From a virus: a stretch of 26,556 bases of DNA. The position numbers and the translations under genes were made by a program. Positions 6,055 through 16,429 of this stretch are shown one piece after another. The notes beneath the pieces are model-generated. The model did not search any database, was not told the origin of the DNA, and saw only the letters and a program-made list of their open reading frames with translations. The DNA lies in the IMG/VR virus record IMGVR_UViG_3300027784_000033, positions 1-26,556 of that record; one strand, given 5' to 3'. The stretch's first letter is position 1. Each line of letters begins with the position of its first letter.

Positions 6055-6649
6055 CAACGCAAAAACAGGGTCGCTCCGTAAGGAGTCGCTGCGGAACTTG
6101 CTGGTGGACGCCGGGGCCGTGTACCTGAATTACGGCGAGGAGGATGAGCGGCTGCTGGGGGCCACCCAAGGCGGCGCGTCCTTCAACGTGGAGCAGGAGG
6201 TCCGGGAGATCGAGGTGGACGGTGCCCGCGGCCCAATCAAAGGCGGTCGGCGCGTGGTGGAGGAGCATGCGCGGATCACCGTGAACCTGATGGAAATGAC
6301 GCCGGAGAACCTGGAGATTGCCCTGTTCGGCGCCGAGGCCGCGGACAACGGCAGTGATGGGGGCAAGAAGGTCACGCGCAGTATCAGCACCCCGGGGGAC
6401 AGCGCATACTTTAAGAACATCGCCCTTGTTGGGGATATCGCGGGCAGCAGCGAGCCCGCAATCTTCCTAATCAAGAACGCCATGGCGGATGGCAACTTCG
6501 AGCTGACCACCGAGGACCAGGACGAGGCGGCGGTGGAGGTGCAGTTCACCGCGCACTTTGACCCGGAGGCGCTGCACGAATCCCCCTGGGAGATCCGCAT
6601 GCCGGCGCTCACGGAGGATGACGGCAGCGACAACGGCGGGGAGGACTAA
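6047..6649 (+). CDS. Major tail tube protein
   Basis: 200 residues. Residues 20-85 give the tube signature: AVYLNYGEEDERLLGATQGGASF, then VEQEVREIEVDGARGPIKGG and ITVNLMEMTPENL. The rest is beta-rich and ends with a Glu/Asp-rich tail. This is the single-layer tube family of long-tailed siphoviruses that polymerises around the tape measure. The following chaperone start overlaps its stop (TAATG at 6647-6651), with GGGGAGGA upstream as a strong ribosome site for that gene. Confidence 0.88.
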   Translation: MGNNAKTGSLRKESLRNLLVDAGAVYLNYGEEDERLLGATQGGASFNVEQEVREIEVDGARGPIKGGRRVVEEHARITVNLMEMTPENLEIALFGAEAADNGSDGGKKVTRSISTPGDSAYFKNIALVGDIAGSSEPAIFLIKNAMADGNFELTTEDQDEAAVEVQFTAHFDPEALHESPWEIRMPALTEDDGSDNGGED

Positions 6650-7011
6650 TGGCACGCGCTACCATCCGGGACCTCAATGCAGGGGACGTTATCGACCTTG
6701 CCGATATCCTCGCGGAGTGCTGGGATCACCTCGACTTTTCGCTGGTGCAGCAAGCCCAGCAACAGTCCACTGCGGGCGATGCGTCCCTGCGAATGCAAGT
6801 CGGCCAACATATCGTCGGCGTAGCGCTCAAGCACGCACGGGAGCCGCTGGTGTGCCTTGTGGCGTCCCTGTACGAGGAGGACGTGGAGGCCCTGCGGAAG
6901 CGGCCCCCGACCGCGATCCTGGACGCGCTGGAGGCCGTGCTGGATTCCCAGGAGGGGCGGGATTTTTTCGAGAAGGGGCGGTCGCTGCTGGGGACCGCGG
7001 GGCGTACCTAG
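6649..7011 (+). CDS. Tail assembly chaperone, short product (gpG-like)
   Basis: 120 residues, helical and unlike other genes here. It begins ATIRDLNAGDVIDLADIL and ends with TAG at 7009-7011. It sits between the tail tube and tape measure genes, where nearly all long-tailed phages encode gpG/gpGT chaperones that coat the tape measure before tube assembly. The frame contains a slippery site at codons 105-107 that gives access to the longer product described separately. The assignment comes from context and the frameshift, not from sequence similarity. Confidence 0.82.
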   Translation: MARATIRDLNAGDVIDLADILAECWDHLDFSLVQQAQQQSTAGDASLRMQVGQHIVGVALKHAREPLVCLVASLYEEDVEALRKRPPTAILDALEAVLDSQEGRDFFEKGRSLLGTAGRT

Positions 7012-7328
7012 ATTTCGTTGCTCGCCGTTACGGATGGGGACCCGCGGAGCTTGCCCGGGTGCCCATCCGGCATTGGTGCCCCATGCGGGAAAGTGGCCGC
7101 CGTGCTGAGGTGGAAGAGTGGAAAGAGGTACGTCGCGGGCACGTTCTTACAGCCTACCTCCTGGGCGCCTTCCCGAAGATGCAGTGGAGCAAGGCGCTGG
7201 AAAAGACCGGGCTAGGGGTAGGTGGCAGCGGTAAGCAGCAGGCCCCCAGCAAGCGCCAGGCCCGCCGCAGTAAAGAGGACATATTAGCCCGGGCGGATCG
7301 GATCAGGAGGGCGGACCTTGGCATTTGA
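6649..7328 (+). CDS. Tail assembly chaperone, frameshifted long product (gpGT-like)
   Basis: Expected product of join(6649..6969, 6969..7328): 107 residues shared with the short form plus 119 residues from the -1 frame, 226 in all. The extension reads as real protein (YLDFVARRYGWGPAELARV, then MRESGRRAEVEEWKEV and LTAYLLGAFPKMQW) and ends in a basic tail. The extension frame has no start of its own near the junction, and its stop overlaps the tape measure start by 11 bp. In lambda the equivalent GT form recruits tail tube subunits to the tape measure. Function is inferred from that system. Confidence 0.82.
6963..6998 (+). promoter_or_regulatory. Programmed -1 frameshift site: slippery heptamer and hairpin
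   Basis: The heptamer T_TTT_TTC at 6963-6969 is in register with the zero frame (codons GAT TTT TTC) and is a canonical X_XXY_YYZ site. Eight bases downstream a perfect 6-bp stem, GCGGTC (6978-6983) with GACCGC (6993-6998) and a 9-nt loop, sits at the spacing expected for a stimulatory structure. Slippage moves ribosomes into the -1 frame, which stays open to TGA at 7326-7328. Confidence 0.88.
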
Positions 7329-9372
7329 GCTCTTTAACGTCGTTGGCCGCCTAGCGCTGGACGGGCACGATGAGGTCGTATCGGGCCTCAATGAAATCGA
7401 TCAGGGGGCGGAGCAAACCCAAAACGGGTTCGATCAGCTAGCGGACGGGATCGAATCCTCGGGCCAGCGTATATCCAGCGCTGGCGACACCCTTTCTAAA
7501 ACTGTTACCGGGCCGCTGGCTGCTGTGGGGGCGGCGGCGACGGGCCTGGTGTCCAATTTTGCCGGTGCGGCGGATGAGGTCGAAAAGACCTCGCAGATGC
7601 TCGGCATATCCGGGGAACGATATCAGGAAATCGAGTACGCACTGGGGCAGATTGCCGGGATGGGTGCCCCGGAGGCGCAGCGTTCGCTTGAGCGACTGAA
7701 CCAGACGGTTGCGGAGGCCCAGCAGGGCAGTGACAGCGCGACCCAAGCGCTGCAGGACTTGGGGTTCAGTCAGCAGGAGATTGCCGACGGCGCCATTGAT
7801 ACGGAGGAGGCGTTCAACCGGGCAATCCAACAGATCGAGAACGCTGGGTCGCAGTCTGAGGCCACTGGCGCCGCGATGGAGTTGTTCGGGCGCCGTACCG
7901 GGCGGCAACTAGCCCCGGCGCTGCGGGAATCGGAGCAAGCGTTTAACGACGTTGCGGAGTCAATTCCGCACGTGTTCACCGAAGAGCAGCGGGAAGCCGC
8001 CGCTGCGTTCAACGATCAGTGGGACGACACAACGCGCACCCTGCAAGGGGTGGGCTACGAGGTGGCGGAGGCCCTGCTCCCGATCATCGAGAGCTTCACC
8101 GAGTGGCTGGAGCAGGACGGGGCGGAGGCCCTGGAGCGCTTCGCGGACCGGATTATCGGGCTCGTGGAGGGTTTTAGGTCCCTTCCCGGCCCGGTGCAAA
8201 GCGCGGTCGTCAAATTTACCCTATTTGCCGGTGCCCTTGGCCCGGTCCTGTCCATTGTGGGCCGTGTGCTCGGCCCTGTGGGCCGTTTAGTGCGCCTGCT
8301 GGGCAACCTGCGGGGTGCTACAGTCGCCGCTACAGTGGCGAAAGCGGCCCTTGCTGCCCCGTTTGTGAAGTTCCTCGCCATCGGCGCAGCGGTGGCCGCG
8401 GCGGTTTATGGGGTTTATCGGGCGCTCCAGCAGATCAGCGCGGTCAGTGAAGCCGTGGGCAGTGCCATGACCGGGCTCGGGGAGCGGATCAGTGATACGG
8501 GCAGCGTGATCCGCTCCTGGGGCGGTACCGTGGGCAGCGTGTTTTCCGAAGCCGGTAGCGTGATCCAGGGCTGGGCGCAGAGCGCCATTAGTGCGGTCCA
8601 GGGCTGGGCGCAGAGCGCCATGAGCGCCGTTAGTGAGCTCGGGTTTGCTGGTGCCATCCGAGCCGCGTTTAGCGCCGCGCTGGACGCGAAGCGGGAGTGG
8701 GCACAGCAGGGCCTTGAGGTCATTACCGGGTGGGTAACGTCGGCACTGGAGGCCGTTGGTGCGTTCACCCTGGCGCGAGCTATCGGGAACGCCGTGAACC
8801 AGGCGCTCACGGTCCTGCGGGAGTGGGCCGGGAACGCGGCGGGTGTGATCGCTGATTGGGTTGGGCTGGTCCCGTCCATTATCGCTGGCGGGGCTTCCGC
8901 GGTCGGCGGGGCTATGCAGAATATGGTGTCCGGTGCCTGGGACGTCCTGCGGGGTTGGGCTGACAACGTGATGGAACTATTCCGCACGATGCCCCGGATG
9001 GTGGTCCAGGCGATCGGCAACATGGCCCAAGCGGTGGTCGAGCAGTTCATAAACATGGCCCGCGGTGCAATCAATGCCGTCCAGAATATGTTCTCCGCCA
9101 TCGTGGGTAACAGTATCCTCCCGGAGCTCCGGGACCGGGCCGGGGAGGAGATGGCCGGGATGGCTGAGGACTCCATGGGCAGCGCGGCGGACATGGAGCG
9201 CGGCGTACAGGGCCACCTTGATGAGATTGACGGGCCGTCCGGGCGCAGCAACGGCGCCGGCCCGGGTGGTGGGCAAAACATCGATATGCGCCATGCCGTG
9301 ATACGTGACGACCGCGACATGCTGGATCGCATGAGACGCCAAGGTGTTGATATATCGGGGGCTGCAGCATGA
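7318..9372 (+). CDS. Tape measure protein
   Basis: 684 residues. It starts at TTG 7318, chosen because AGGAGG (7305-7310) sits 7 bp ahead and no better start exists nearby. The N-terminus has the TP901-like pattern (SKTVTGPLAAVGAAATGLVSN, 60-80) and coiled-coil regions. Residues 297-325 and 334-368 are strongly hydrophobic, as in tape measures that contact the membrane during DNA ejection. Residues 398-550 carry Trp-centred repeats (QGWAQSA, REWAQQG, REWAGNA, RGWADN), including an 11-residue tandem pair. At about 1.5 angstrom per residue, the length predicts a tail near 100 nm. It overlaps the next gene by ATGA. Confidence 0.92.
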   Translation: MAFELFNVVGRLALDGHDEVVSGLNEIDQGAEQTQNGFDQLADGIESSGQRISSAGDTLSKTVTGPLAAVGAAATGLVSNFAGAADEVEKTSQMLGISGERYQEIEYALGQIAGMGAPEAQRSLERLNQTVAEAQQGSDSATQALQDLGFSQQEIADGAIDTEEAFNRAIQQIENAGSQSEATGAAMELFGRRTGRQLAPALRESEQAFNDVAESIPHVFTEEQREAAAAFNDQWDDTTRTLQGVGYEVAEALLPIIESFTEWLEQDGAEALERFADRIIGLVEGFRSLPGPVQSAVVKFTLFAGALGPVLSIVGRVLGPVGRLVRLLGNLRGATVAATVAKAALAAPFVKFLAIGAAVAAAVYGVYRALQQISAVSEAVGSAMTGLGERISDTGSVIRSWGGTVGSVFSEAGSVIQGWAQSAISAVQGWAQSAMSAVSELGFAGAIRAAFSAALDAKREWAQQGLEVITGWVTSALEAVGAFTLARAIGNAVNQALTVLREWAGNAAGVIADWVGLVPSIIAGGASAVGGAMQNMVSGAWDVLRGWADNVMELFRTMPRMVVQAIGNMAQAVVEQFINMARGAINAVQNMFSAIVGNSILPELRDRAGEEMAGMAEDSMGSAADMERGVQGHLDEIDGPSGRSNGAGPGGGQNIDMRHAVIRDDRDMLDRMRRQGVDISGAAA
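8564..8628 (+). repeat. 33-bp tandem repeat in the tape measure gene
   Basis: Two near-identical 33-bp units begin at 8564 and 8597 and encode IQGWAQSAISA and VQGWAQSAMSA. The 11-residue unit with one Trp matches the aromatic 11-residue periodicity known from many tape measure proteins. It probably reflects recent unit duplication, a route to changing tail length. Confidence 0.75.
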
Positions 9373-11048
9373 CGAATAGCAACGGCTGCCCGGACCCGTG
9401 CCAGGGGCAATCAGCGGACCTGCAGACGGAAAACAATCCGGGCTTCGAGGTCCACGACGCAGACGGCAACCGGGTACTCGGCCCCTACGACTCCGAACAG
9501 GAAGCGCAGGATGAGCGGGGGCGTATCGAGATCAAGGCTCCGGGGGTGGATTACCGGATCACGCACCCGGATGAAGGCAATCTGACGCGGCGGTACGGCG
9601 ACAGAAGCGTTCTTGAAACCTTCCTGGATGGGTACACCATCGGCGAGGCCCCGGGCAGCACGTCAAGTGAGCCCCTTTACGATATCCACGATCAGGAAGG
9701 TGATGCGGTCATGGGGCCGTACGAGTCCCAGGAGGAAGCACAGGATGAGCTTGACCGCATTGAAATAACCGAGGTCCCTGCAGCGGGAAGCTATCGCGTG
9801 AAGCACCCGAATGAGGGGCGCCTGGGGGAATTTAGCAGCGAATCCAAGGCGCAGGAATTCCTTGATGGGCTCACCGTCGAAGAAGTGGATCGTCACTTCA
9901 TAAAGAATGACCGGGGCGAGTATATCGAGGGGCCGTTTGATACTGAGGAACAGGCCCAGGACGCCATCGACCAAGATTATTCGGACGGAATCAAGTCCAT
10001 GGAGAAATGGGGTGGCGATGGCAAGACAGAGCCCTACGACCTCGATGAGCTTACCAAGGATCAGTTCGACGATAATTTCGCCAAGGATATGGCCGGGCTT
10101 AAAGATCAACCGAAGTTTGACCCGGATAAATCGGCGGAGGAACAGGAAGCGCGGTACTACGTAAAGGACGCCAGAAACGAGCGCGTGGCGGGGCCGTTTG
10201 ATTCGGAGAAACCCGCGTACGAGGCACTGGAGCGGCGTGCTAGTTATTCTGTAGGGGCGGACGATGTTGAGCAGTTTTGGGCGGATTACTACAAGCAGGA
10301 GGGGGAGAAAGGACCGTTCGAGACGAAGCTAAAGGCCCTTCATGCGATCCGCGAGGAACGGGGGTTTTCCCTTCACGGCGTCGGCGCTGGGACCTGGGGC
10401 CTGGACACGAATTGGTACGTCTACGGCCCGGGGATCGGGAACGAGGGCCTGGGGCCGTTTGAGAACCAGCGGGCGGCACTGGAAAGCACCGTCACGGGTA
10501 ACGGGTGGTCTGTTCGCCGGGAAAGTTTCCGCGGCCACTATGTGCGGGACCCACGGGGTGCCAAGGTCGCCGGATACTTTCGCGACCGTTTGGATGCGCT
10601 GAAAGCGGTGGAACGGAAGAGTCGGGATTACAGGGTGGAGAATCTAGACCCGGGGGCGGATCGGTTGCTGGCCAGTAGCGAGGGGGAGGCGGAAACCATT
10701 ACCGTCCCTGAATTGCGGAGCCGGATGGATCAGCAAGCCCCGGAAATGGACACCGATGACTTCGACGTTAATGATTACGAGGACGCGCGGCGGCAGGAAC
10801 AGCTAGATGAACTGGATGCTAAGGACCCGGACGAGGACGACCCGGACGAGGAGGACGCTACCGACCTGGAGGAAGTGAGCCGGGAAACGTCCACCGTCTA
10901 CGTCACGGAGGACGGTGCGGAGGATTCCCCGCCCGAGGGTAGTGAGCCGTACCTGGAAGTGGAGCGCGTGGAAACCATCCTGATCCAGGACCCTTCCACC
11001 GGGCGGCGCTGGCGCATACACTTCAACCACGACGGGGGCACCGAATGA
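9369..11048 (+). CDS. Acidic tandem-repeat protein of the tail module (GPY/GPF modules), unknown function
   Basis: 559 residues, not a protein I recognise. It contains seven copies of a roughly 30-residue module: a strand such as FEVHDADGNRVL, the motif GPY or GPF, then D-(S/T)-E-x-x-A followed by a helix. The motif triplets lie at residues 38, 116, 188, 275, 315, 362 and 402 (the last is GYF). A second module, YR(I/V)xHPxEG...FLDGxT, follows copies 1 and 2 (residues 62-90 and 142-169), so the first 170 residues are a duplicated A-B pair. The C-terminal 110 residues are extremely acidic (KDPDEDDPDEEDATDLEE). The gene overlaps the tape measure and hub genes by ATGA junctions, which places it in the tail operon. 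It may be a structural tail protein, but this is inference. Confidence 0.7.
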   Translation: MTNSNGCPDPCQGQSADLQTENNPGFEVHDADGNRVLGPYDSEQEAQDERGRIEIKAPGVDYRITHPDEGNLTRRYGDRSVLETFLDGYTIGEAPGSTSSEPLYDIHDQEGDAVMGPYESQEEAQDELDRIEITEVPAAGSYRVKHPNEGRLGEFSSESKAQEFLDGLTVEEVDRHFIKNDRGEYIEGPFDTEEQAQDAIDQDYSDGIKSMEKWGGDGKTEPYDLDELTKDQFDDNFAKDMAGLKDQPKFDPDKSAEEQEARYYVKDARNERVAGPFDSEKPAYEALERRASYSVGADDVEQFWADYYKQEGEKGPFETKLKALHAIREERGFSLHGVGAGTWGLDTNWYVYGPGIGNEGLGPFENQRAALESTVTGNGWSVRRESFRGHYVRDPRGAKVAGYFRDRLDALKAVERKSRDYRVENLDPGADRLLASSEGEAETITVPELRSRMDQQAPEMDTDDFDVNDYEDARRQEQLDELDAKDPDEDDPDEEDATDLEEVSRETSTVYVTEDGAEDSPPEGSEPYLEVERVETILIQDPSTGRRWRIHFNHDGGTE

Positions 11049-12841
11049 GCGTTTACGGGGAACTCCGCCAGACGGTCCGCGTTGCCGGGGAGGCAGTATG
11101 GGCGCATGACTGCGCCATACAGGAAGGTCTCCGGGAACTGACCCGTGTTTCCGTGGTGGTGGAGGACCCGGAGTGGGCGCCGCGCCCTGGCGATACGCTG
11201 CAGGTTGACCAGGAAGTGGACCTTCCCGGTGGTGGGGTGTGTACATACAGTGTCACGGCGGGGATAACCGATGTCACGGAGGCCCGCGGCAACGTACACA
11301 CGTTCTATCGCGTGGAGGCCCGTGGGGAGGGGTACGTCACCCGGCACCGGCGCCTGCTCCGCACTTGGCGCAACAAGCCAGCGGAGCAAATAATCGAGGA
11401 AGCGTTTGCGGAGGCGGCGCCCGAGATGGATTTATCGGGGGTGGACGCTGGTGCGGGCACTGTGGGGGAGTACGACAGCCGCTATGACTCCCTCTACGAC
11501 CTCATGGATACCCTGGCGGAGCGCTTCGGGTGGGCCTGGCGGGTACAGGATGGGGTACTGTACTGGCGAGACCCCAACACTCTCCCTGGGCCTGATCTCA
11601 ATGCGTCGGACATTGAGCGCGGGACGCTGCAGGTGCAGCGCTCGCTTGACAGCGTGTTCAACGTTGCTCGGGTAGTAGGGTATGAGTACGAGCATGAATC
11701 CGTAACTAAGCGCGTGGAGCCCGGGGAGTGCCTGCGGGCTGTATCCATACCGGGGAAGCGTATCCTGTCCGATGAATGGGAGGTAGTGGGGCAGGCGCAG
11801 GTCACGGAGGGGCTGGAGGACTGGATCGGGTCTGTGGGGCGCGTAGGGGACGGCAGTAAGATGGAGCTGGACCCACCCCTGGGCAACCCGGATTGCAGTG
11901 GTGCAGAGGCTGTGCGTGCCCGTGTAGAGTGGGACGTACGGCGCCCTGTATGGGTGCGGGCACAACGTAAGGACAGTATCGCTGTCTACGGGCGCCGGGA
12001 GGCACCGCCCCTCTCTGATGACGGGAGCCGGTCAATCAGTAGCGCCCGGGATAAGCTGGAAGCGTACCTGAGAGAACATGCCTGGCCCCCGGTGAGCATA
12101 CAGGCTGGTCTCGTGCGCCCGGACGTCCGTGCGGATCAGGTGGTGGCGGTAACGCTACAGGACCCGCCCGTGGAGCGGACGCTGATCGTAGAGCGCGTGC
12201 GGCGGACGGTATCCGGGAACGACCTGCAGGTGGAAGTGGAACTAGCCACCCCGGAGGAAAACGGGGGTAGTACCGCGGGGGCTGCAGCCAATAACAATGC
12301 AGGCGCGACCAGGGTGGCGCAGACAGACCCCAACCCGTTGCGGGAAGCAGTACGTCGGGTGGAGCACCTTGAGCGAGACGCTATGTCCTCGGGCACCTTG
12401 CGCGGTGCTAGTGCCCGCTCCCTGGGCGACCTGGAAGAGACGGAGGGTCATTACGGTCGCTGGGGCTGGGCTGGTGCCGTGGAGGCGGAGGGCGCCCCGG
12501 TGGCCGCGATTGCAGGTCGCTGGGGCTGGGCTGGTCGCTGGGAGCCCACTGTGGATTGGGCCACACCTGTGGTCTTCGGACGTTGGGGCGCCGGAAGCAT
12601 TCAATACACGGACACGGCCCGCGCCGCGAACCGTGTTTGGGCGGCTTCCCGGACGCTGCGAACGGGGGCAATTAAACCGCGCGTACGTTGGGAGGGCGCC
12701 TGGGTACTGCCGGACGATGAGATGACGGATGAACCGCGGGGCTTGGTCGTTGGTGGCGAAATGGTCATGCCTGTTACACTTACACCAGACCCGGGAACCC
12801 TCGTCGTGGGGCAAGAATTTACAATGGGGAGCACGCAATGA
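11045..12841 (+). CDS. Baseplate hub / tail-associated protein (gp27/gpD-hub-like)
   Basis: 598 residues. The beta-rich N-terminus (1-100) contains RPGDTLQVDQEVDLPGGGVCTYSV. It is followed by the helix-strand unit typical of hub proteins: PAEQIIEEAFAEAAPEMDL (112-130), then YDSLYDLMDTLAERFGWAWRV and GVLYWRDP (148-177). Residues 335-400 form another hub-like element (ARDKLEAYLREHAWPPVSI, VERTLIVERVRRTVSG). The C-terminal part after an Ala/Asn linker (408-422) has GRWGWAG twice and FGRWGAGS, a likely separate tip or carbohydrate-contact domain. The position after the tape measure fits a tail-tip hub. The family assignment is by fold-like pattern, so moderately sure. Confidence 0.68.
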   Translation: MSVYGELRQTVRVAGEAVWAHDCAIQEGLRELTRVSVVVEDPEWAPRPGDTLQVDQEVDLPGGGVCTYSVTAGITDVTEARGNVHTFYRVEARGEGYVTRHRRLLRTWRNKPAEQIIEEAFAEAAPEMDLSGVDAGAGTVGEYDSRYDSLYDLMDTLAERFGWAWRVQDGVLYWRDPNTLPGPDLNASDIERGTLQVQRSLDSVFNVARVVGYEYEHESVTKRVEPGECLRAVSIPGKRILSDEWEVVGQAQVTEGLEDWIGSVGRVGDGSKMELDPPLGNPDCSGAEAVRARVEWDVRRPVWVRAQRKDSIAVYGRREAPPLSDDGSRSISSARDKLEAYLREHAWPPVSIQAGLVRPDVRADQVVAVTLQDPPVERTLIVERVRRTVSGNDLQVEVELATPEENGGSTAGAAANNNAGATRVAQTDPNPLREAVRRVEHLERDAMSSGTLRGASARSLGDLEETEGHYGRWGWAGAVEAEGAPVAAIAGRWGWAGRWEPTVDWATPVVFGRWGAGSIQYTDTARAANRVWAASRTLRTGAIKPRVRWEGAWVLPDDEMTDEPRGLVVGGEMVMPVTLTPDPGTLVVGQEFTMGSTQ

Positions 12842-13248
12842 AATCGGTGAGCTGGCAATCGGTCGGAAACGAAATCATGCCCAGCGGGCATGAAATGCTT
12901 GCCGCGCTCGTGGCGGGGGAGGAAACGGGGCTGCGGTTTGATCGTTTTCGGTTACTGGATGAAAATGAAACGGAAATCGAAACGACTGATGCCGTGTCGT
13001 TTGAATGGAGTACGCTGGAGGATATCGACGGGGCGATGGTACAGGGGTCCACAGTGGTTCCCGGTAGCAGCGTAACCAGCGACGTGCATTATATCGAGCT
13101 CCTCAATAACCTGGGGGACGCGGTTGCACGGGCGGAACTGGACGATCCGATCGAATCCGGGCAGGCGGTCCTGATTACCCGGATGGACTTCTTCGGCAAC
13201 CCGGACAAGCTGCAGGATTACGACCCAAACAATAACGGGGACGATTAA
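12838..13248 (+). CDS. Small tail-tip protein, unknown function
   Basis: 136 residues, acidic, overlapping the hub gene by ATGA. It looks beta-rich (GLRFDRFRLLDENETEIET, VHYIELLNNLGDAVARAEL, QAVLITRMDFF) and ends in a low-complexity DYDPNNNGDD tail. The pattern of a strand followed by NxxGxxVARAEL and ITRMDFF looks like a folded domain, but I do not recognise the family. Position suggests a tail-tip or fibre-attachment component. Confidence 0.6.
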   Translation: MKSVSWQSVGNEIMPSGHEMLAALVAGEETGLRFDRFRLLDENETEIETTDAVSFEWSTLEDIDGAMVQGSTVVPGSSVTSDVHYIELLNNLGDAVARAELDDPIESGQAVLITRMDFFGNPDKLQDYDPNNNGDD

Positions 13249-13259
13249 GGGGCGCGGTT

Positions 13260-13841
13260 ATGACCATTGGATCTTTCACCATTGGCGGCGCCAGTATTGG
13301 CGGCACAGCGGATGCACAGCCGCCTGACGTCAGCCCACTGGACCTAGCCCTCGCGCAGATTGTGGTTCGCGCGGAGAACGGCCCTGTGCTGGAACAGGCC
13401 GGGGTTAAGGTCTACCGCGCCACCGGGTACAAGACGGAGGAGCTGGACGACAAGCTGACGGACGAGGACCTCGCTTACCTGTGGACGGAGCGCGGGGAGT
13501 TCCTGGACCTGGCGGGGGCGTACAAGGATGAGCCGGATACGTTAGTCACCGACAATAAGGGCCGCGTCAAGTTTCGCGCCCCGGGCGGCGTGTACGATAT
13601 CCGCTTCCAGCACGGTGATGACGTGGACTGGTGGCGGGGCTATCGCATGGGCTTGGCGGAGGCCCGGGACGTAGGTACACAGGATCAGGAGCTACCTAAA
13701 GCCGGGGAGGTGTTAGGGTTACTGCCCGGGGCACCGGATGCACAGGACAACGGGGCACCGAGCGCGGTGCTAGTGGTACAGGACGGGGAGGCCCGCTGGG
13801 CGACGCTGGATCAGCTCGCCGGGTGGCTGGACAACGGATAA
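13260..13841 (+). CDS. Tail protein with carboxypeptidase-regulatory-like beta-sandwich
   Basis: 193 residues. After a Gly/Ile-rich N-terminus (IGSFTIGGASIGGTA) comes a strand-rich core: ENGPVLEQAGVKVYRATGY, LVTDNKGRVKFRAPGGVYDIRF (written here in parts), then the Trp-rich VDWWRGYRM. The combination of a TDNKGRVKF turn and a PGGVYDI edge is typical of Ig-like carboxypeptidase-regulatory sandwiches, often used in phage tail tips as joints. The C-terminal part (VLVVQDGEARWATLDQLAGWL) resembles the segment preceding fibre genes. It lies between the tip and fibre genes. The fold is inferred. Confidence 0.55.
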   Translation: MTIGSFTIGGASIGGTADAQPPDVSPLDLALAQIVVRAENGPVLEQAGVKVYRATGYKTEELDDKLTDEDLAYLWTERGEFLDLAGAYKDEPDTLVTDNKGRVKFRAPGGVYDIRFQHGDDVDWWRGYRMGLAEARDVGTQDQELPKAGEVLGLLPGAPDAQDNGAPSAVLVVQDGEARWATLDQLAGWLDNG

Positions 13842-13865
13842 CGGGATCACCAAGAGGTAAAAGTC

Positions 13866-15737
13866 ATGACGGAAGAGCGTTTTGCGCTGTACAACCAAGC
13901 GAAGGCAGAGCTGGGGGCGTCGGTAGACGAGGAAACAACTACCCTAGTCCTAACGGAACGGTCCAGTACCCTGGATGATGCCCTGGGGCACGTGGACAGC
14001 GAGGCCACACCACCGGTCGTGGTGGCGCTGGTGCTGGATGACGGCGAACACTGGGAGGCCGTGCGCGTCACGGGCTGGGACAGCGATAACGGTGAGGCGA
14101 CGGTTGACCGCGGTGCATGGGACAGCGAGGCCCGTGCGTGGGACAGTGGTACGCCGGTTGAGCTCCGGGCGGTGGCAGCCGTGTACGAGCAGGCGTTTGA
14201 CCGGATCGGGGACCTGGAGGGTAGCGTAGAGGCACTGGAGGGCAAGGATACCTTACTCGCTAGCAACAACCTTTCCGATTTGGATGACGCCGAGCAGGCC
14301 CGGCAGAACCTTGAGTTGGATGGGGCGCTCAAGGCGTCCAACAACCTCTCCGATTTGGCTGACGCTGAACAGGCCCGGCAGAACCTTGAGGTGGATGGGG
14401 CGCTCAAGGCGTCCAGCAACCTTTCCGATTTGGATGACGCCGAGCAGGCCCGACAGAACCTTGAGGTTTCTCACAAGGACCATGTTCTTCCTTTAGAACG
14501 CGGCGATCATATCGGTGAAAGCGCCATAGATTCGCAGCTCACGCGCCCCGAGGATGAAGATGGTGAACCACAGGGGGCTAGGGGCAAGGAATCTATCATC
14601 CTCGGCAACAGATCCTCCGTTCCTTCCGACGCAAACGGGGCCATTGTTATCGGCAACGATGTAAGAGTGGAAGGAGGCGAAGAGTCCGTTGTTATAGCTG
14701 GCAACCTGGATGAAGTGAGTGTAAAACCCGGGAAACAGTCCCTCGTTGTGAATTGTAGGGGGGACGTGGACACTTCCGAGTCCGTTGTTCTTTGCAGTTA
14801 CGGCAAAGTTGACGGCGGAGGTTGGGGGGCGAACTTTTGCTTCCTTAATTGGGGCGAGGTGATTGGGCGCCAAAACATTAGCTTCGTTAATCAGGGGAAA
14901 GTAGACGGCCAAACCAATGTTTGCTTCTTTACTTGGGATGATGTCGAAGGGGACTACAATGTTGCACTTCATTGTTGGAGGGATGTCGTAGGGGTCTACA
15001 ACGTTCTGGCTCAAACTTGGGATGATGTCGAAGGGGACTACAATGTTGCACTTCATAGTTGGAGGGATGTCGTAGGCAGCGACAATGTTGCAATCCAAAA
15101 CCAGGGGGAGGTCCTGGGTGATTACAACATCGCTATTGGTGGCCAGGCGCTGGGTCCGGACAACGAGAAAGTAAACAACACCGTTTCCTTGGGGTCGAAG
15201 GGTACCAACCCCGCTAAAGCAAAGGGGGATGACGCGATCGCGATTGGAGGTGAAGCCGAAGCGGAGTCCAACTCCATCGCGATCGGTTCCGTTAGTTCGG
15301 CAAAAACCGGGACGAATCAAGTAGCGGGGTTCCCCTTGGCAGCGCACAAGGGGGACGAAGAAACTTTTTGGGACCGAAGTGGGCAGAAGGGTGTTCTGCG
15401 GGCGGTCAAGGACACTGTGGACGACGCTTCCGGGGCAAGCGTCGCCATCCCTGTGCCGGATGGGACAGTTCTGTTTGTAGACACTGTGAGCCTCGTGGTG
15501 CGGAGCACGGACAGCCCCGATGGGAACGTAAATGTTCACGTTCACGCTGATGGCACGGACCTCGTAAACGAGGACCGGGCTGCAGGGGACTGGAGCGAGT
15601 GGCACCGGCACCGTTGGGACGCTGACTCCCTGGACGGCATCCCGGGCGGCACGGACCTAGAAGTGGAAGTAGGTAGTACGGACAGCGGCTCCGCTGAAGT
15701 GGAAGTGATCCTGGAAGGTATCTTGGTCAACAAGTAA
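13866..15737 (+). CDS. Tail fibre protein with NLSDL repeats and YadA-like beta-roll
   Basis: 623 residues. Residues 1-110 form an attachment domain (VVVALVLDDGEHWEAVRVTG, VDRGAWDSEARAWDSGT). Residues 133-201 are three 25-residue units (NNLSDLDDAEQARQNLE), a motif common in phage fibre shafts. Residues 243-476 are about 14-residue rungs such as DVEGDYNVALHCWR and DVVGVYNVLAQTWD, ending in AIAIGGEAEAESNSIAIGS, which is nearly canonical YadA/Hia head repeat. Residues 520-623 are a beta-rich tip with LFVDTVSLVVRS and LEVEVGSTDS. Most likely a trimeric receptor-binding fibre. The ribosome site AAGAGG is at 13851-13856. GC is visibly lower after about 14470. Confidence 0.82.
   Translation: MTEERFALYNQAKAELGASVDEETTTLVLTERSSTLDDALGHVDSEATPPVVVALVLDDGEHWEAVRVTGWDSDNGEATVDRGAWDSEARAWDSGTPVELRAVAAVYEQAFDRIGDLEGSVEALEGKDTLLASNNLSDLDDAEQARQNLELDGALKASNNLSDLADAEQARQNLEVDGALKASSNLSDLDDAEQARQNLEVSHKDHVLPLERGDHIGESAIDSQLTRPEDEDGEPQGARGKESIILGNRSSVPSDANGAIVIGNDVRVEGGEESVVIAGNLDEVSVKPGKQSLVVNCRGDVDTSESVVLCSYGKVDGGGWGANFCFLNWGEVIGRQNISFVNQGKVDGQTNVCFFTWDDVEGDYNVALHCWRDVVGVYNVLAQTWDDVEGDYNVALHSWRDVVGSDNVAIQNQGEVLGDYNIAIGGQALGPDNEKVNNTVSLGSKGTNPAKAKGDDAIAIGGEAEAESNSIAIGSVSSAKTGTNQVAGFPLAAHKGDEETFWDRSGQKGVLRAVKDTVDDASGASVAIPVPDGTVLFVDTVSLVVRSTDSPDGNVNVHVHADGTDLVNEDRAAGDWSEWHRHRWDADSLDGIPGGTDLEVEVGSTDSGSAEVEVILEGILVNK
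14262..14470 (+). repeat. Three 75-bp tandem repeats in the fibre gene
   Basis: Copies begin at 14262, 14337 and 14412 and encode (A)SNNLSDLDDAEQARQNLE plus the linker LDGALKA. They differ at only a few positions, so they arose recently by duplication or are kept alike by recombination. Units of this type make up shaft segments in phage fibres. Confidence 0.9.
14592..15293 (+). repeat. Beta-roll repeat region with an 84-bp DNA duplication
   Basis: About sixteen 14-residue rungs, with hydrophobic pairs such as NVALH, SVVIA, NISFV and AIAIG. Within it, 14931-14992 and 15015-15076 are almost identical at DNA level, a period of 84 bp or two rungs, so the roll has grown by duplicating rung pairs. 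The last rungs (AIAIGGEAEAESNSIAIGS) match YadA-type head repeats closely; the earlier rungs are Trp/Asp-rich variants. Confidence 0.8.
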
Positions 15738-15748
15738 AGGAGCCGGGA

Positions 15749-16429
15749 ATGTCTTCGTTAGTCCTGGACCCGCTGCAGCGGATAACGAGGTCCGAGTTCC
15801 ACGGAGGAACAACGGCGGTGGTGGCCTTTTGTGAGCATACCTATGGTTCGAGCTACTATTGCGAAGAAGCCCATGGTTCGCTCCAGCCGGAGGACGTAGG
15901 AACGGGGCCGTATATGGTTGGCCCAAGGAAGGACGCAATTAGGACAATGCCTTGGTGGTTCGATGACGTACAAAGATGGAAATTCGTTTACGAAAGAATA
16001 GGCCTCAAGGGCGTAGCATTTGAGTTACCAGACAACTGGCCTCCTCCCAGTATAGTACCTGTGGGCGAAGAAGCACCAGAAGGTGTGACAGTTGTTCCTG
16101 TGTCATACCCCCTGTCCATCGACAAGTTGACGCAACCCGAGTTCCGCCCGGCGGTGGCAAATCGTTTCGCGCCGGGCGTGGATCCGAGGTTCTACATATT
16201 CGTCCGCGGCAGGGCGGACGCCGATGACCTCCACCCAAGATTTTCATGGTATCTGTCCCGGATCCGCGAATGGCGCGTCCCTTATCGCGTGATTGAGGTC
16301 ACTCGTCCCGCGTGGGAGGACCAGCCGACGGGCCTAGGTGGGAGGCAATGGCTGCAGTGGCTGTACGCGCCATTCATGGGAGGATTCAATCTAGGGGCCG
16401 ACGTGGCCTATGAGGATTGGACGCCATGA
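15749..16429 (+). CDS. Orphan tail-tip-region protein, unknown function
   Basis: 226 residues, no family recognised. It starts at ATG 15749 behind AAGGAG. It is rich in aromatic residues and Pro (MPWWFDDVQRWKFVYERIG, LPDNWPPPSIVPVGEE, WLQWLYAPFMGGFNLG) and has two Cys near the N-terminus (FCEHTYGSSYYCEE). There is no signal peptide and no membrane segment. Base composition is lower in GC than the neighbouring structural and lysis genes, like the distal part of the fibre gene. Coming directly after the fibre, it could be a fibre chaperone, a receptor-binding accessory or cargo. None of these can be shown from sequence. Confidence 0.6.
   Translation: MSSLVLDPLQRITRSEFHGGTTAVVAFCEHTYGSSYYCEEAHGSLQPEDVGTGPYMVGPRKDAIRTMPWWFDDVQRWKFVYERIGLKGVAFELPDNWPPPSIVPVGEEAPEGVTVVPVSYPLSIDKLTQPEFRPAVANRFAPGVDPRFYIFVRGRADADDLHPRFSWYLSRIREWRVPYRVIEVTRPAWEDQPTGLGGRQWLQWLYAPFMGGFNLGADVAYEDWTP

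Follow-up and report, generated by a model that had tools for sequence, protein, structure and literature searches.

The window analyzed here—a 26,556-nucleotide stretch of viral DNA, positions 1 to 26,556 of IMG/VR virus record IMGVR_UViG_3300027784_000033—carries a set of tail genes in which the gene for a 559-residue acidic modular protein lies between those of a tape measure protein and a gp27/gpD-like hub (Table 1). Further upstream are the HK97-type capsid gene, a tail completion gene, and the major tail protein gene; a tail assembly chaperone, likely made by programmed -1 frameshifting as judged from its reading frames, precedes the tape measure. The slippery stretch of the chaperone genes is in codon phase, and the -1 frame, open as far as 7328, extends past the start of the tape measure gene. 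The hub is matched by Phage_GPD (E 1e-4, below the curated cut-off), by the baseplate hub family phrog_196 (E 2.5e-4), and weakly by YQBQ-like profiles; its C-terminal third contains a repeated GRWGWAG motif that no family match explains. Downstream of the hub are two proteins without a family (136 and 193 residues; 12838-13841) and then a fibre-like protein (13866-15737), which carries a weak YadA-type stretch along with three repeats of the NNLSDLxDAEQARQNL type. As no tail sheath was recognized among the tail-gene products scanned, the phage is likely a siphovirus.

Table 1. Features of the 559-residue protein and its neighbouring genes, in window coordinates.
Feature	Coordinates	Strand	Basis
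Tail assembly chaperone, G/GT-type pair	6649..7328	+	slippery T_TTT_TTC at 6963-6969
Tape measure protein, 684 aa, upstream neighbour	7318..9372	+	phrog_8462 E 7e-33, phrog_58 E 1.5e-28
559-aa acidic modular protein	9369..11048	+	ATG start, TGA stop; codon usage fits the frame; ATGA overlap with each neighbour
N-terminal leader, residues 1-21, contains CPDPC	9369..9431	+	low confidence in AlphaFold2 model
Domain D1, residues 22-97: GPY half at 38 and YRITHPDEG...FLDG half	9432..9659	+	motif, duplication, domain scores
Domain D2, residues 99-175: GPY half at 116 and YRVKHPNEG...GEF...FLDG half	9663..9893	+	AlphaFold2 model
Domain D3, residues 176-245: GPF half at 188 and degenerate EPY half at 221	9894..10103	+	motif, domain scores
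Domain D4, residues 261-345: two GPF halves (275, 315)	10149..10403	+	motif, unit model, domain scores
Domain D5, residues 347-432: one GPF half (362) and one GYF half (402)	10407..10664	+	motif, unit model, domain scores
Acidic segment, probably disordered, residues 433-520	10665..10928	+	34/88 residues D or E
Putative C-terminal beta-hairpin, residues 521-559, ILIQDPSTGRRWRIHF	10929..11045	+	predicted strands 534-540, 547-553
gp27/gpD-like hub, 598 aa, downstream neighbour	11045..12841	+	Phage_GPD, phrog_196, YQBQ-like matches

The open reading frame has the codon usage of a gene: its codon score is 0.19 in frame, while the two alternative frames score -0.23 and -0.77. The ATGA overlaps described in an earlier, sequence-only reading of this DNA are present at 9369-9372 and 11045-11048; this coupling to both the tape measure and the hub, together with the tail context, supports that reading's view of the gene as a true member of the tail operon. 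Base composition agrees: third-position GC (GC3) is 0.71 in this gene and 0.62-0.77 across the tail-tip block (7318-16429), whereas every other scored gene lies at 0.80-0.88. This match speaks for the gene having been inherited together with the tail-tip genes. The block itself may be a cassette that was separately acquired or is faster evolving, as the composition suggests. Near the N terminus, the CPDPC sequence (residues 7-11, window 9387-9401) is possibly a metal site or a disulfide.

Repetition within the protein is well beyond chance. The pattern G[PY][YF]-x(4-7)-A occurs seven times, at exactly the residues that had been claimed (38, 116, 188, 275, 315, 362, and 402), while 20,000 shuffles of the protein gave a mean of 0.09 occurrences and a maximum of 3. 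The best ungapped self-alignment scores 114 (shuffles: mean 40, maximum 55), and residues 20-97 and 98-177 form a tandem duplication with 44-46% identity. The consensus proposed earlier, GP(Y/F) followed by D(S/T)E, is looser than stated—the copy at 402 is GYF, and D(S/T)E is found only at 38, 188, and 275 (loosely at 116). The residues conserved across the modules (G, P, Y/F, and A) look structural rather than catalytic, and this suits a binding or spacer role.

A second element, YRxxHPxEG...FLDG, had been described as a separate module interleaved with the first. It is indeed duplicated along with the GPY unit; however, it is best read, from sequence comparison, as a diverged copy of that unit and the partner half of each GPY copy. 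A 36-position unit model recognizes nine copies, a circular result because all nine are in its training set, and leave-one-out models were therefore compared with shuffles. Seven of the nine copies beat all 200 shuffles, and the copy at 362 was matched by 2 of 200. The second YR-HP copy reaches 22.5 bits (above 200/200 shuffles) with a model that includes the first YR-HP copy, and only 6.2 bits with a model of the seven GPY copies alone. The first YR-HP copy fails alone (1.2 bits, reached by 9/200 shuffles); it is assigned as a unit because of the identity between the first and second tandem repeats.

The modularity thus stands, and the count of seven modules plus a second type can be refined: the predicted architecture is five domains of about 80 residues, each made of two beta-beta-alpha halves, with ten half-modules in total. 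Beyond the first duplication the halves pair as 188/EPY221, 275/315, and 362/402. Six of the ten domain pairs score above 500/500 shuffles (D1-D2, D1-D4, D2-D3, D2-D4, D3-D4, and D4-D5), two come near this level (D1-D3, reached by 3/500; D3-D5, by 1/500), and two are weaker (D1-D5, 22/500; D2-D5, 13/500). Structure prediction, proposed earlier for residues 26-175, was confident for D2: AlphaFold2, with D1 as the sole aligned relative, gave pLDDT 89.7 and pTM 0.74, and a predicted order of E-E-H-E, E-E-H-E (bbab-bbab). Folding the whole protein from its sequence alone gave pLDDT of about 83-92 over residues 101-170 and a poor model beyond residues 100-180, with low values elsewhere and a mean of 44. 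The C-terminal hairpin is tentative because its pLDDT is about 50.

The half-module is apparently not novel but a known tiny phage fold that many phages carry singly. Foldseek searches of predicted viral proteins (BFVD) matched one half to many phage proteins of 44-70 residues, at 1.1-1.6 A over 36-38 residues, with probabilities of 0.99-1.00 but E-values of only 0.08-0.6; examples are K7QJF6 (Escherichia phage phAPEC8), A0A873WA39 (S-H38), and I2GUC8 (AP22). The whole protein also matches two PHROG families of unknown function, phrog_10621 (E 2.3e-7) and phrog_3002 (E 1.3e-6). Because most of these relatives of the module are small phage proteins that stand alone and have no known function, the gene could be cargo (a moron) with a role inside the host cell, such as multivalent inhibition of a host protein, and its place in the tail operon would then be incidental. 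We consider this very unlikely, given the coupling at both ends, the absence of a composition break against the tail-tip block, and a slot that normally holds a tail gene.

One of the small phage proteins matched by Foldseek is named 'SPOR domain-containing', and SPOR domains are known to bind denuded peptidoglycan glycan (PMC6895207). For the whole protein, Pfam SPOR (PF05036), DUF6316, and DUF4170 come near or above their cut-offs, with no single stretch sufficient alone: the summed SPOR score is 27.8 against a cut-off of 21 bits, and the best single stretch scores 12.7 bits. When the record that holds the window was searched in six frames, SPOR and DUF6316 came up below cut-off only. Likeness to SPOR consists of a GPF turn followed by a helix, two pseudo-repeats per domain, and a weak profile match in the right register; the unit profile aligns, at E 0.0047 and a probability of 3%, with the beta2-beta3-GPF-alpha2 part of the four SPOR domains of E. 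coli, against E 0.66 for a reversed control. However, the SPOR fold is beta-alpha-beta-beta-alpha-beta, a four-stranded sheet with two helices (PMC6895207), whereas D2 has one extra predicted strand per half. The glycan-binding Gln in beta1 of SPOR is absent at the aligned position (two residues before the GPY/GPF glycine or its equivalent) in all ten halves. D1-D4 are net acidic, while the SPOR criterion is a basic patch for denuded glycan. Because the predicted strand order differs and the Gln is missing, the module should not be filed as SPOR; in shape, the half-modules weakly resemble the C-terminal half of a SPOR domain.

Searches of the PDB gave no convincing fold match: the best E-values from Foldseek were 0.59 and 0.83, and VIA reached a Z of 3.9 at most. 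SPOR structures are absent among the matches listed, which is not evidence against the SPOR likeness. Near the top of the structural list are YegP / DUF1508 and YaiA structures, which share a small beta-beta-alpha arrangement with the module; their Z-scores are only 3.2-3.9, tied with unrelated chains, and the profile comparison was null (E about 0.6). The best PDB sequence match, the GYF domain of GIGYF2, has the strand-GPF pattern in common and was set aside as not significant (E 0.43).

Relatives of the whole protein were not found in the phage, plasmid (DNA and protein), viral-contig, or genome-contig collections at the sensitivity used; the contig scans work by exact matches to short peptides, and remote relatives may escape them. 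The motif, searched as a DNA pattern, occurred in seven viral contigs, none of which encodes more than one module in the frame of the match. The hub, tape measure, 193-residue, and 136-residue proteins returned only remote tape-measure similarity. Capsid relatives were found at 29 loci, and the array is absent from 18/18 capsid-relative records searched, two of which have one weak module match each. The ten-module array is an orphan: a known unit in what appears, by these comparisons, to be a new array and placement. One capsid relative, a contig of 10799 bases from IMG record 3300000557_000110, is nearly the same virus, with 99.8% DNA identity over 9114 bases; the contig ends at window position 9114, inside the tape measure gene and short of the 559-residue gene. 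An 8-kb contig (L025) has two capsid-gene matches about 6.6 kb apart (1-789 and 7369-7965), which could reflect a circular sequence opened within the gene, duplication of the capsid gene, or an artefact of assembly.

The position of the gene can be compared with that of other phages. Between tape measure and hub, Stenotrophomonas phage TPWB-10 has a distal tail protein, Dit (phrog_33, E 1.6e-20), and S-LBS1 and CGphi29 have proteins of unknown family; phiC2 has a 'putative LysM' protein (p21) between its tape measure and the next large tail gene. That the gene was inserted, as first proposed, is thus doubtful—since the slot is normally occupied by a protein, the gene seems to replace another rather than to come in addition. 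None of these slot proteins resembles the 559-residue protein, in which Pfam profiles detected no LysM domain (E up to 1). Clear similarity to a distal tail protein is also absent, with no Dit family match in PHROG profiles (E up to 1) and no meaningful BLASTP similarity to the TPWB-10 Dit.

The protein might nonetheless replace Dit in linking the tail tube to the hub, its repeats serving as ligand-free spacers. It lies in the exact Dit gene slot, PHROG and Pfam profiles detected no Dit among the tail-gene products scanned, and conserved module positions that are structural only would suit a spacer. However, this explanation is unlikely when set against the lack of similarity to Dit, a chain of five beads with an acidic disordered tail that is unlike a ring-forming beta-sandwich, and the chance that the 136- or 193-residue product is the real Dit.

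The very acidic tail reported earlier is real (residues 433-520, 39% D+E). The protein as a whole is 24.3% D+E, the highest value in the set, and 11.1% K+R; most other structural proteins of the phage are also acidic, several of them, including neighbours, at 16-21% D+E, and exceptional acidity was accordingly dropped as an argument for function. Acidic structural proteins are expected of a phage of a halophile, and a halophilic source is presumed here: the phage habitat looks salty, and the acidity of the protein is probably for the most part a halophilic adaptation. An acidic and partly disordered protein translationally coupled to both tape measure and hub could instead be an assembly factor that stays out of the virion—a chaperone for either partner, released before tail completion—and single modules are common as small phage proteins that look non-structural. 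The usual G/GT-type tape-measure chaperones are apparently already encoded upstream, and we know of no chaperone with a five-domain GPF-module architecture; such a role is quite unlikely.

The reading that we tentatively favour, at somewhat under an even chance, is that of a tail-tip-associated structural protein of a siphovirus that acts as a multivalent envelope-binding arm. We infer its presence in the virion, its location at the tip, and its contact with glycan from the gene's slot, its coupling within the operon, a base composition shared with the tail-tip block, and the weak likeness to SPOR. Each of the roles suggested earlier, as a tail decoration, a tail-tip spacer, or a polysaccharide-contact protein, may apply. 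Five tandem domains of paired half-modules, encoded between tape measure and hub, would most likely sit close to the hub, fixed to the distal end of the tail tube. There they could form a flexible multivalent arm that touches envelope or wall glycan as the phage adsorbs or its DNA enters; in high salt, the acidic segment would help by keeping this arm soluble and extended. Against the arm stand a SPOR signal that is a sum of weak stretches, a differing predicted topology, and the missing Gln, as well as single-module phage proteins that are mostly small, stand-alone, and without a known virion role. The bolder proposal of a new class of tail-tip protein—one in the Dit/LysM slot, derived by serial duplication of the GPF module, and serving a halophile phage as a multivalent wall- or glycan-binding arm—is rather unlikely as a whole. 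If it were true, such an arm would have arisen from a fold that is common among phages in the form of orphan microproteins. A ten-copy array in a tail operon offers a tractable way to ask what the GPF module binds.

Among known systems, Dit is comparable in its slot between tape measure and hub and in possible saccharide contact, and evolved Dit with carbohydrate-binding modules exist (PMC10688798); in contrast, neither sequence similarity to Dit nor a Dit core was detected in the 559-residue protein. Dit is marked by ring-forming belt and galectin-like domains, and the full-length model to be set against them has a mean pLDDT of 44. The LysM tail protein p21 of phiC2 (XkdP type) shares the slot before a large tail gene and a candidate wall-binding role; phiC2 has a tail sheath, whereas none is recognized among the tail genes here. 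Small single-module phage proteins appear to share the beta-beta-alpha unit with its GP(Y/F) turn, but they consist of one module in 44-70 residues with no known tail role, while here ten modules make up a protein of 559 residues encoded in a tail operon. The protein would add another kind to those that phages place between tape measure and hub.
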